In this document: positions 25,152-28,795 of the stretch, in pieces
Numbering within the stretch: position 1 is the stretch's first letter
How the letters are laid out: every line of letters begins with the position of its first letter
From: Candidatus Korarchaeum sp.
GTDB lineage: Archaea; Korarchaeota; Korarchaeia; Korarchaeales; Korarchaeaceae
Assembly: GCA_038888615.1 (NCBI GenBank)
Contig: JAWAID010000001.1
Location: 682,001 to 746,000, forward strand
DNA: 64,000 nt
Direction: 5' to 3'
The notes under the pieces: model-generated
What the model was told of the DNA's origin: nothing
Database searches by the model: none
The model's input: the letters and a program-made list of their open reading frames with translations, nothing else
Program-made: the position numbers and the translations under genes

Positions 25152-25894
25152 GAAGTTCCCCCCAAATACCTATCTATACTCAGGAGGGCCTCACTAGCCC
25201 CCCTCCTCATCCTGAAGCGCGCGAACCCACTTAAATTGGTTTCCTCTGGGTTTATCTCCACAAGCGTAGCCCCATGCTTCAAGGAGATCAGCGGTAGGGA
25301 GGCAGCAGGCATGACGAGACCGCTAGTTCCTATTACTAACACGACCCTGGCTTCCCTCATCATACCCTCAGCCCTGGACCAGGCATCCAGAGGGAGAGGC
25401 TCGTGGAACCAGACTACGTCGGGCCTCATCAGGGAGTTACAGCTGCAGATCGGAGGGACCTTATCCGGAATATTACCGAAGCCTAGGTCAATCTTGAGGC
25501 CGCATGATGTGCATCTGATCCTCCAGATCGATCCATGGAGCTCTACCACGTTAACGGATCCAGCTTCCTGATGCAAACCATCGACGTTCTGGGTCACGAC
25601 GCCCATCACTATACCCTCCCTCTCCCACCTAGCCAGCACCTCGTGAGCTAAGCTGGGTCGGACCTCCCTGATGAGGGACATCCTCCACCTGTACCAATCC
25701 CAGACGAGCTCAGGGTTCCTTCTGAAGGCCTGCGGTGTAGCTAGCTCCTCGGGATCGTACTTATCCCAAAGACCGCCCTTTCCCCTGAAAGTGGGTACCC
25801 CTACCTCCGCCGATATGCCGGCGCCCGTGAAAGCGACTACCCTCCCTGAGCCCCTCCTCAGGAGCCCCGCTACCTCCTCAGCTTCTGAGTTCAT
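25148..25894 (-). CDS. Sir2-family NAD-dependent protein deacylase
   Basis: This removes acyl groups from lysine using NAD. Motifs in order: AFTGAGISAEVGVPTFRG (NAD), TQNVDGLHQEAGS with ELHGS (catalytic His), zinc Cys CTSCG and CSCN, and VIGTSGLVMPAASLP. It is 248 aa, class U/III size. The ATG at 25894 follows GGAGGTCG and overlaps the end of the radical SAM gene; the longer reading frame to 25945 is not needed. In archaea Sir2 acts on Alba and other proteins. Here its position between a radical SAM enzyme and a GNAT suggests a dedicated role. Confidence 0.93.
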   Translation of the reverse strand: MNSEAEEVAGLLRRGSGRVVAFTGAGISAEVGVPTFRGKGGLWDKYDPEELATPQAFRRNPELVWDWYRWRMSLIREVRPSLAHEVLARWEREGIVMGVVTQNVDGLHQEAGSVNVVELHGSIWRIRCTSCGLKIDLGFGNIPDKVPPICSCNSLMRPDVVWFHEPLPLDAWSRAEGMMREARVVLVIGTSGLVMPAASLPLISLKHGATLVEINPEETNLSGFARFRMRRGASEALLSIDRYLGGTS

Positions 25895-27194
25895 GAGGCT
25901 CGACCTCCGGAGGGTTAGGGGGATAAGGCCTGACCTCGGACTCAAGAGGGCAACCTCCTCTACAGGCTCCTAATGCTGGACAGCTCAAGCAGGCATCACC
26001 TACGTAAGCGGCTTCCCTTATCCTCCTGCATCCCTCAGAGTACCAGATTCTCTCCCAGTCATCCCTCAGTATGTTTCCGAGCCTCAGGTAGTGGCTCTGG
26101 CAAGGTATGACCGATCCATCCGGCTCCACAGCTATCGCTATACTGCAAGCCGAGCAGAACTTCGGGCCCAACCCAAGCTCGATGGGATCGATCTCACAGT
26201 ACCTGGTGACCCCGTACCAAGTGAAATCCAGACCAAGCTGTAAGCAGAGCTCTTTCGCCTCAGAAACGACCCTCCTCATCTCATCGAAGTCCGGCTCTAG
26301 GTCCTCGGCTAGCTTAGCCCTTCCGCTGTAAATCAACCTGTTCAATGAGTAGCCATGGACCCCCAGCCCAGCGACGAACCTCAGGGTGTCCGCTATCCTA
26401 CTCGAGTTCTCCCTCAAGAGTGTTGAGTTCACGCTAACGTAAACCCCGGTCCTCAGAATGTTCCTTATACCTTCAACGGTCCTCTCCCAGCTCCCCCTCA
26501 CTCCCGTGATCCTCTCATGCACCTCAGGGTCACTAGCTTCCAGGGTGATCTGGATGTAGTCTAAACCAGCCCTGGCGAGCCTCTCCGATAGCTCCTCGCT
26601 TAACAGAGTTCCGTTAGTTACTACACCCGATACGATCCCCAGCCTCTGAGCCTCCTCTACCAGCTCCACCAGGTCCTCCCTGAGGGTGGGCTCGCCTCCG
26701 GTGAAGGTCACCTGAGGGACTCCCAGATCCCTGAGGATCCTCAGGACCTCCTTCCACTCATCCGTGGTGAGTTCCCTCACCTCAGCGGGGCTATCGGAGT
26801 AGCAGTGGAGGCATATGTTATTGCAATCGTAGGTCAACGCTAGATCCACCCTAAGGGGAGCGGAGAGGAGTGAAACATCCGGGAACTGATACCTGAATCC
26901 CAAGTCCGTTACGGGATCACCGTAACCCTCTATGAACTTACTTACCTTATCAACTATCTCCTTGAAGTGCTCCCTAATATCCCTCTTCCTCAACCCCCTG
27001 TAGTGTGCCCTCAGTTCCCTCAAAGCGTCTCTCCAGTCACCTCCTGAGAGGAATGCCTTCACCATGAGAGCAGCCGTGTGGTTCAGGTAAGCTAGCCTAC
27101 TGGCATCCACGACTAGCGAGCCCATGCTGTAAGGTTCGATCCTCAGCTGAACCTTATGGCCCTTGTAGTTGAACTGCATGAACCTTTCGCTCAA
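25878..27194 (-). CDS. radical SAM/SPASM enzyme with N-terminal PqqD-like domain
   Basis: This is likely a peptide- or protein-modifying radical SAM enzyme. Residues ~1-95 resemble PqqD/RRE (SLVVDASRLAYLNHTAALMVKAFL and the following helices), a domain that binds precursor peptides. The radical SAM core has CNNICLHC, FTGGEPTLRED and GVVTNGTLL. The SPASM domain has CSAC, GSVIPC, CLSC and CRGGC for extra clusters. It is about 438 aa. The start is TTG at 27194, overlapping the stop of the upstream membrane-protein gene as TTGA, with GGAGGCGGTG as binding site, which itself encodes part of the Cys tail. It is thus coupled to its likely substrate. Confidence 0.88.
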   Translation of the reverse strand: MSERFMQFNYKGHKVQLRIEPYSMGSLVVDASRLAYLNHTAALMVKAFLSGGDWRDALRELRAHYRGLRKRDIREHFKEIVDKVSKFIEGYGDPVTDLGFRYQFPDVSLLSAPLRVDLALTYDCNNICLHCYSDSPAEVRELTTDEWKEVLRILRDLGVPQVTFTGGEPTLREDLVELVEEAQRLGIVSGVVTNGTLLSEELSERLARAGLDYIQITLEASDPEVHERITGVRGSWERTVEGIRNILRTGVYVSVNSTLLRENSSRIADTLRFVAGLGVHGYSLNRLIYSGRAKLAEDLEPDFDEMRRVVSEAKELCLQLGLDFTWYGVTRYCEIDPIELGLGPKFCSACSIAIAVEPDGSVIPCQSHYLRLGNILRDDWERIWYSEGCRRIREAAYVGDACLSCPALGACRGGCPLESEVRPYPPNPPEVEPHELRS

Positions 27195-28795
27195 CGGACA
27201 CCGCCTCCCGCGCAAGCACAGGCGCAGCTAACACAAGCGCAAGCACAGGCGCAGCTAACACAAGCGCAAGCCACTCTGACTCTCCTACTGCTCCCACTAG
27301 GCCTCTCGGGGACTATGGCCTTGGCTACTCTCTCAGAGAAGTCCTCCAGGTTGGTCACGATGGATGAGGAGAACCTCTCGATGGACCTGGCTACGGAGTC
27401 AGCGGCTTTCTCCAAGTCAGTGACCACCGGTACATCGCGGGCTGGCTCCTGGGGAGTAGGGACGTATACGGTCCCCCTCCTCGGGATCCATATCAGGACA
27501 TCCGGAGGCTCTCGCACAATCACGGTAGCGGGGGCTCCCTCCCTCATGTACCTCCTCAGCTTCCCATCGAAGTCCTCATCGGTCAGGAGCCAGGGTAGGT
27601 TCTCCCTGAGGAACTCGAGCCTCCTATCCGGCACCTCCTCCGAGAGCCTTCTCCAGAGCGAGCTGACGAGCTTCTCGTAGTGAGTTAGGGTCTCAAGTCT
27701 CGAGTATCCCGAGAGCTCCTTATTCACTCTCCTGTGGAGGACCCTAATCACGTTGACCAAGCATTCCTCCTTGGGCCTCACTCCCTCTAAGCAACTGAGG
27801 AACTCACTCTCGTAAGCCCTAAGCTGAACGGTGGTCTCGCTCAGCCTCTCCATCTCCAGGGGCTCCAATCTCCTGATGTTGAGAAGACCCTTGTTAGATA
27901 GGACCAGAGCTAATATAGCCAGTATCCTGCCGTAACTGATCCTCCTTCCCTCTAGCTTCTTCAAGTAGGCTACCTCAGGTGGCTCAAGGTTCTTATTGAT
28001 CCCCAAGCTCTCGACAACGACCTCCGGGACCTGATAAGGTCTCTTCTCCATCAGGACCTTAGCGTACCTCACTATGAGGAAGATGGACGCTAGGAGCGCC
28101 CCCAGGAGGATGAGGGCCAACATGACGTACAGCGTATCGTTCTCCTCAGAGCTGACGTAGGCAGAGACGTAATCCTTCGGGAATGAGACACCGACATCCA
28201 GCTTGAAGTTAGGCTGAAGCATTCTCCTCTCCCAGTAGAGAGCGATCCTGTTGTCCTCTAGAACGATCAAGTTATCGTAATCCGGTTGGTTCCTCACCTC
28301 CTCGCTCCTGACGCCGGGTGGAAGGACGACCCACAACCTGAGCCTCCTGACCATCGCATCGAACCAAGATGGTATGAACCTAAGTCCCACGTTCCCGGGG
28401 TTCGTCAGGTCCTCGTATATGAAATCCCTCAGCCTGACCTCCAGGTAGTAGGTTCTGGACTCTCCAGCGTGTATCGGCGTACCAGGGTGCATCCTAACAG
28501 CGTAGTAACTACCCTCAATGACCTTCTCGTAACTGATCCTCCTAGCTTCCCCCTCGTAAATCTCTAAAGCCGTTAAAACATCGAAGTTCCTGGAGGGCAT
28601 ACCGATTGAGACGTAGCTAGTCACCGTACCGGCTGTGATGCGGATGGTTAAGTTGTAGGAGAGGAGGATATCCCCGGATCCCTCTATAACGAGCGTCACG
28701 TCCTCCTCCTCTACCTCGTAGCTTACTTGCGCTGATACGGCAGCTAGGGGTATCAAAAGGAGCAGCATTAGGACAGGAGTGATTACCCTATTCAT
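27191..28795 (-). CDS. DUF2207-like membrane protein with Cys-Ala repeat tail
   Basis: A signal peptide (VLMLLLLIPLAAVSA) and a ~200-residue extracellular beta domain are followed by one strong helix (LYVMLALILLGALLASIFLIV, ~225-250). A cytosolic part follows, with a DUF2207-like PPEVAYLKKLEGRRISYGRILAIL region. The C-terminal 25 residues are unique: two perfect copies of CACVSCACA (510-518, 519-527), then CAGGGVR, nine Cys in 19 residues. The tail should be cytosolic, where the adjacent radical SAM enzyme could modify it or metal could bind. Leaderless ATG at 28795, TATA near 28818-28828. First gene of the four-gene operon. Confidence 0.82.
   Translation of the reverse strand: MNRVITPVLMLLLLIPLAAVSAQVSYEVEEEDVTLVIEGSGDILLSYNLTIRITAGTVTSYVSIGMPSRNFDVLTALEIYEGEARRISYEKVIEGSYYAVRMHPGTPIHAGESRTYYLEVRLRDFIYEDLTNPGNVGLRFIPSWFDAMVRRLRLWVVLPPGVRSEEVRNQPDYDNLIVLEDNRIALYWERRMLQPNFKLDVGVSFPKDYVSAYVSSEENDTLYVMLALILLGALLASIFLIVRYAKVLMEKRPYQVPEVVVESLGINKNLEPPEVAYLKKLEGRRISYGRILAILALVLSNKGLLNIRRLEPLEMERLSETTVQLRAYESEFLSCLEGVRPKEECLVNVIRVLHRRVNKELSGYSRLETLTHYEKLVSSLWRRLSEEVPDRRLEFLRENLPWLLTDEDFDGKLRRYMREGAPATVIVREPPDVLIWIPRRGTVYVPTPQEPARDVPVVTDLEKAADSVARSIERFSSSIVTNLEDFSERVAKAIVPERPSGSSRRVRVACACVSCACACACVSCACACAGGGVR
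27212..27271 (-). repeat. 27-bp tandem duplication encoding the Cys-Ala tail
   Basis: The unit, 27 bp (27212-27238), is repeated exactly at 27239-27265, followed by six bases of a third copy. Each copy encodes the nonapeptide CACVSCACA. Because even synonymous positions are identical, the duplication is recent or kept uniform by recombination. The copy number probably varies between strains. Confidence 0.9.

Follow-up and report, generated by a model that had tools for sequence, protein, structure and literature searches.

A near-invariant Cys-Ala tail on an archaeal membrane protein and its adjoining radical SAM/SPASM gene suggest a protein-modification system

The DNA analyzed in the present study (hereafter, the window) is a stretch of 64,000 nucleotides from Candidatus Korarchaeum sp. 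Its minus strand carries a gene for a membrane protein that ends in a tail of cysteine and alanine residues, part of which is encoded by an exact tandem repeat. The features of this gene are as follows.

27191-28795, minus strand: tail-bearing membrane protein gene, 534 aa, ATG start, stop 27191-27193 (ORF; full-length homologs)
28730-28795, minus strand: N-terminal hydrophobic signal-type helix, residues 1-22 (sequence; helix 2-20 in the AlphaFold model)
28178-28723, minus strand: beta-rich ectodomain, residues 25-206, distant DUF2207 N-terminal domain (AlphaFold model; Foldseek; Pfam in few relatives)
28046-28138, minus strand: single transmembrane helix, residues 220-250 (AlphaFold model; hydrophobic sequence)
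27542-27982, minus strand: helical domain, residues 272-418, putatively cytosolic (AlphaFold model; side from predicted topology)
27194-27271, minus strand: Cys-Ala tail, residues A509-R534, nine Cys (alignment; codon-position test)
27210-27271, minus strand: exact 27-bp tandem repeat, 2.3 copies, within the tail coding sequence (Tandem Repeats Finder)

The beta-rich domain was modeled with a pLDDT mostly >93, and Foldseek matched its fold to the beta domains of ribophorin I and M1 peptidases. The window protein matched neither DUF2207 (PF09972) nor TIGR04222. Among its 54 aligned homologs, four matched DUF2207 at E<=0.01 (best 1.6e-5) and three matched TIGR04222 (best E 1.3e-5), all of which are weak matches; a relative with a different tail type, described below as ACHS, scored 21.6 bits against DUF2207, for which the cut-off is 24.4. 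The tail was disordered in the AlphaFold model. Since a signal helix is followed by one transmembrane helix, the helical domain and tail are predicted to lie on the cytosolic side, and the tail should be within reach of the enzyme encoded next to it.

The initial annotation had placed an exact 27-bp duplication within the Cys-Ala tail at 27212-27271. This was confirmed, with coordinates correct to within 2 bp: Tandem Repeats Finder, run on the 64-kb window, reported an array with a period of 27, 100% matches, and no indels. Its sole other row in the window, a 15-bp repeat, was rejected as a separate repeat because it is the same array viewed again. On the minus strand, the units occupy 27271-27245 and 27244-27218 and are followed by 8 bases of a third. 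They are in frame in the ORF, which ends in VACACVSCACACACVSCACACAGGGVR followed by the stop codon, and encode two C-terminal nonapeptides, ACVSCACAC, within the tail ACACVSCACACACVSCACACAGGGVR. With the codon usage of this genome, the chance of all nine codons matching between two copies of this peptide is ~2.6e-4; therefore, the DNA identity of the units is not attributable to chance. A second copy of the tail was not found in the source genome. A viral or mobile origin was also considered and rejected because viral contigs contained no match to the tail.

Directly downstream of the tail gene, on the same strand, lies a gene for a radical SAM/SPASM protein.

27204-27209, minus strand: GGGAGG, Shine-Dalgarno-like, in tail glycine codons, 9 nt before the TTG start (sequence)
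25878-27194, minus strand: radical SAM/SPASM protein gene, TTG start 27194-27192, alternative ATG 27179 (sequence)
26928-27179, minus strand: PqqD-like RiPP recognition element (RRE) (Pfam PqqD in relatives; fold)
26373-26837, minus strand: radical SAM domain, CX3CX2C at 26802-26825 (Pfam; cysteines invariant)
25977-26156, minus strand: SPASM domain, CX2CX5CX3C (Pfam; near-invariant cysteines)

The TTG start of this gene overlaps the stop codon of the tail gene (TTGA), and the corresponding overlap is ATGA in relatives L004 and L005. The GGGAGG in the glycine codons of the tail may be the ribosome-binding site of the radical SAM gene. Together with the stop/start overlap (27191-27209, minus strand), this motif suggests that the two genes are translationally coupled. 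A longer radical SAM ORF starting from TTG 27215 inside the tail was discarded because, in relatives, the start lies at the codon overlapping the stop or farther downstream.

Pfam detected Radical_SAM and SPASM in 58 of the 58 aligned members of the enzyme family and PqqD in 24 of them. The AlphaFold model of the enzyme (pLDDT 91) had its best structural matches in SkfB (Z 29.8), SuiB (Z 27.9), PqqE (Z 25.4), and CteB (Z 24.6), and a sequence search of the PDB also ranked SkfB and PqqE first. The enzyme was below the cut-off in all 25 NCBIfam SPASM equivalog models listed (PqqE, SkfB, ACGX, PTO1314, and others), the best score among them being 150.3 bits for PqqE against a cut-off of 381.35. 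An MNIO was rejected as the modifying enzyme since PF05114 was absent in the 31 genomes examined, with positive controls.

The tail was strongly conserved. In the alignment of 54 homologs, which share 23-73% identity with the window protein, no variation was observed at residues 515-522 and 524-529, and S523 was at least 90% conserved; the 15-residue core thus has 14 invariant positions, the exception being this Ser. The Ala residues between the Cys residues were as invariant as the Cys residues themselves. Among 15 members of the genus, the third positions varied in 17 of 17 core codons, and no first or second position varied. Judged from this codon pattern, the amino acids of the tail are under strong purifying selection.

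The same core, CACACACVSCACACA, was also present in Bathyarchaeota, Theionarchaea and other Methanobacteriota, one Hermodarchaeote, and Bacillota. Searches with the full-length membrane protein yielded homologs from 25 of the 101 genomes sampled, and a profile search (E<=1e-10) identified them in 33 of 394 archaeal genomes, neither search depending on the tail alone. A larger set of 78 loci was partly collected with the tail pattern CACACACV, and the invariance of the tail is therefore overstated in that set. The exact core was found in 22 of the 33 profile-positive genomes. Among the others, the contig ends at or before the tail in G005 and G021, the tail is a CA run in G243, G334, and G360, and it consists of ACHS repeats in G017, G100, G191, G209, G226, and G277. 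The number of Cys residues in the counted stretch ranges between 6 and 10 across lineages, and tail length also differs.

The ACHS-repeat tails constitute a second type with its own radical SAM clade (loci L171, L172, L174, L183, and L184; L176). Bacterial versions were observed in the Bacillota loci L119, L123, and L124, which have the tail SCACACACVSCACACACAGGGGCT; two of these, L119 and L124, have the enzyme gene on the other strand. One carrier paralog (L185, G025:C183) has a Gly-Ala tail without Cys.

The initial annotation had proposed that the tail expands or contracts by 9-residue steps and that repeat number is under selection. No relative differed from the window by a whole nonapeptide, and a comparison of repeat number among relatives revealed the same two-unit peptide without the gain or loss of a unit. 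Tail length was uniform in genus members with a complete tail, except in G003/L014, in which five residues were lost; the other loss seen removed ~10 residues of the ACHS tail of G100. Selection on the tail is strong, as described above. However, it does not appear to act on copy number: among the 25 genomes with two identical nonapeptides, only seven had units that were identical at 27 of 27 bases, which points to recent homogenization instead. Six relatives, from independent assemblies, also had 27/27 identical units, but with codons that differed between genomes. L001 and L002, which are more closely related than any other pair in the enzyme tree, differed in 5 of the 9 unit codons, and every difference was present in both copies. 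Since unit sequences differ between genomes yet match within them, the units homogenize each other while the encoded length is fixed. These results indicate local and recent homogenization, or concerted evolution, with protein length held constant. The tail peptide is ancient, in contrast to the DNA identity of its units, which arose locally and recently. An assembly error is an unlikely source of the duplication and was rejected because the two-unit peptide is also present in independent assemblies of relatives. The exact DNA repeat would then be a by-product, in that tandem copies of a constrained peptide homogenize each other and selection maintains their length.

The tail gene and the enzyme gene adjoin in most loci and are usually co-directional; the enzyme gene is not directly adjacent in G026 and G027. 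With an enzyme profile threshold of E<=1e-60, the enzyme was detected in 33 of the 394 archaeal genomes, the same number as the membrane protein, and 32 genomes had both, these counts coming from related genomes rather than independent samples. The protein of the sole enzyme-only genome (G036) grouped with the outgroup in the enzyme tree. The sole carrier-only genome (G025) is tail-positive, and no enzyme was detected in its 91%-complete assembly of 210 contigs. Furthermore, the partners of ACHS-type tails formed a single clade in the enzyme tree (support 100/99). G017 and G021 belong to the window's own family, in which their relatives have CA-type tails, yet their enzymes fall within the ACHS-type clade. 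The ACHS tail was read in G017; in G021, the enzyme and the carrier were seen and the contig ends before the tail. The ACHS-type enzymes of these two genomes indicate that tail type goes with enzyme type and not with host taxonomy.

Neither a protease or exporter nor a second processing enzyme was recurrent among the neighbor families of 76 loci, and no immunity gene was recurrent beside the tail gene. A gene for a small two-TM zinc-ribbon protein, which ends in EEPKW or a close variant, was present in 37 loci (e.g., L076:5576-5920 and L072:5558-5890), in most cases immediately upstream of the tail gene; in the window, the two are not adjacent. Genes for SPFH-domain/zinc-ribbon proteins were located near the tail gene in six loci (L076, L103, L114, L118, L122, and L133), and in L076 a coiled-coil gene adjoins the SPFH/zinc-ribbon gene, an arrangement that recalls PSP-type membrane-stress operons. 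At L214:1267-2445 in the source genome, a gene for a two-TM protein lies beside a gene that appears PspA-like by eye. Only the TM part of this protein matches the zinc-ribbon family, and this match is too weak to support further conclusions. In L171, L172, L173, and L175, the ACHS-type radical SAM gene adjoins a gene whose product carries Ala_racemase_N and D-ser_dehydrat domains (as tested in L172), and several of these loci have a conserved ~140-aa protein gene near the carrier gene.

We consider it probable that the tail is a RiPP-like core peptide that is fused to a membrane-protein carrier and modified in place by the partner enzyme. The RRE-radical SAM-SPASM enzyme would dock on the carrier, abstract hydrogens from tail residues, and join Cys sulfurs to neighboring residues, most likely Ala, through thioether bonds; the product would remain tethered to the membrane on the cytosolic side. 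The elements of this proposal are not equally strong. It is quite likely that the tail is the substrate of the partner enzyme. The product may well stay on the carrier, because no protease or exporter recurs beside the tail gene. Judging from the closest structural relatives of the enzyme, we lean slightly towards thioethers as the links in the tail. A role in membrane surveillance is conceivable, but rather unlikely. The near-invariance of the tail points to a single, fixed structure that serves a housekeeping function (e.g., metal/redox chemistry or membrane surveillance) and speaks against an antimicrobial peptide. The mention of a multiply modified peptide in the initial annotation fits the presence of a dedicated RRE-radical SAM-SPASM gene adjoining the tail gene.

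Alternatively, the tail may be an unmodified, metallothionein-like module that binds metal or an Fe-S cluster, with the radical SAM enzyme acting on something else. Nine Cys residues with CxC spacing suit soft metals, ACHS-type tails bring His, and zinc-ribbon proteins are often encoded nearby. However, the near-perfect co-occurrence of the two genes and the tracking of the enzyme clade by tail type are difficult to explain in this manner, and metal binding alone does not require Ala to be as invariant as Cys. We regard this explanation as improbable. A secreted antimicrobial RiPP of the sactipeptide type, with the tail cut off and exported, is more doubtful still. The enzyme fold matches sactipeptide maturases, and radical SAM RiPP clusters have been predicted, in general terms, to be widespread in archaea (PMC12144867); however, the protease, exporter, and immunity genes of such a system are not recurrent at these loci, the core is nearly invariant across phyla, unlike those of diversifying antimicrobials, and the carrier is a membrane protein that is both large and conserved. 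It is slightly less probable again that the tail is the precursor of a redox cofactor, trimmed to a small product as in PQQ or mycofactocin. Invariant cores are typical of cofactor precursors, and the enzyme has a PqqE-like RRE-SPASM architecture. However, no second processing enzyme recurs nearby, and lineage differences in tail length and Cys number are not expected for one small product. Finally, that the duplication is a functionless result of replication slippage in low-complexity sequence or of an assembly artifact is hardly credible: slippage does produce exact repeats, and the units are identical in some genomes only, but the conservation of the peptide across phyla despite DNA divergence contradicts this explanation at the protein level.

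Collectively, the results obtained suggest that the tail-bearing carrier and its radical SAM partner, modifying the tail in place, constitute an undescribed protein-modification system. No published description of the tail motif or of the gene pair was found in a literature search that mostly covered papers outside subscription. We tentatively speculate, at a little under even confidence, that the pair represents a RiPP-like class in which the core never leaves its carrier and the Cys-Ala (or Ala-Cys-His-Ser) tail is cross-linked in place as a permanent, tethered modified-cysteine module, in several archaeal phyla and some Bacillota. If this is the case, archaea modify a membrane protein in a conserved, non-diversifying manner, with two tail types each having its own enzyme clade. 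The pair would also be a compact two-gene system for direct tests of new thioether chemistry and its cellular role.

Most characterized radical SAM peptide modifications yield short, released, often antimicrobial bacterial products. The enzyme described herein shares its predicted fold and its RRE, radical SAM, and SPASM/Twitch architecture with the sactipeptide maturases SkfB, AlbA, CteB, and SuiB, and its putative substrate is similarly rich in Cys. In contrast to sactipeptide and ranthipeptide systems, this putative substrate is the terminal segment of a 534-aa membrane protein rather than a short precursor peptide with its own gene, and a leader protease or exporter was not recurrent in the 76 loci. 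SkfB forms thioethers between Cys and an alpha carbon (PMC6231123), and RumMC2 is able to use Ala as an acceptor (PMC8188230). The NCBIfam ACGX-system radical SAM model (TIGR04340) also describes a SPASM enzyme linked by name to Ala-Cys-containing repeats; however, the present enzyme scored 77.7 bits against its cut-off of 400. The SPFH/zinc-ribbon genes near the tail gene resemble the pspA-ydjGHI membrane-stress operon of B. subtilis (PMC8581546), a likeness of neighborhood only; neither a radical SAM enzyme nor a Cys tail is described in that operon. The Cys clusters of the tail, with their CxC spacing, resemble those of metallothionein-like proteins. The closest idea in the literature holds that MNIO (DUF692) enzymes act on TIGR04222 membrane proteins with Cys-rich tails as their substrates (PMC12452194). 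As in these TIGR04222/DUF2207-type proteins, a disordered C-terminal Cys-rich tail is present on a membrane protein, and a neighboring RiPP-type enzyme is the proposed modifier. However, the enzyme is a radical SAM protein in the present system and an MNIO in many of theirs, and the tail is a near-invariant Cys-Ala sequence rather than a variable Ser/Gly-rich one. Moreover, the tail described herein is mostly archaeal and predicted to be cytosolic, whereas theirs are periplasmic.
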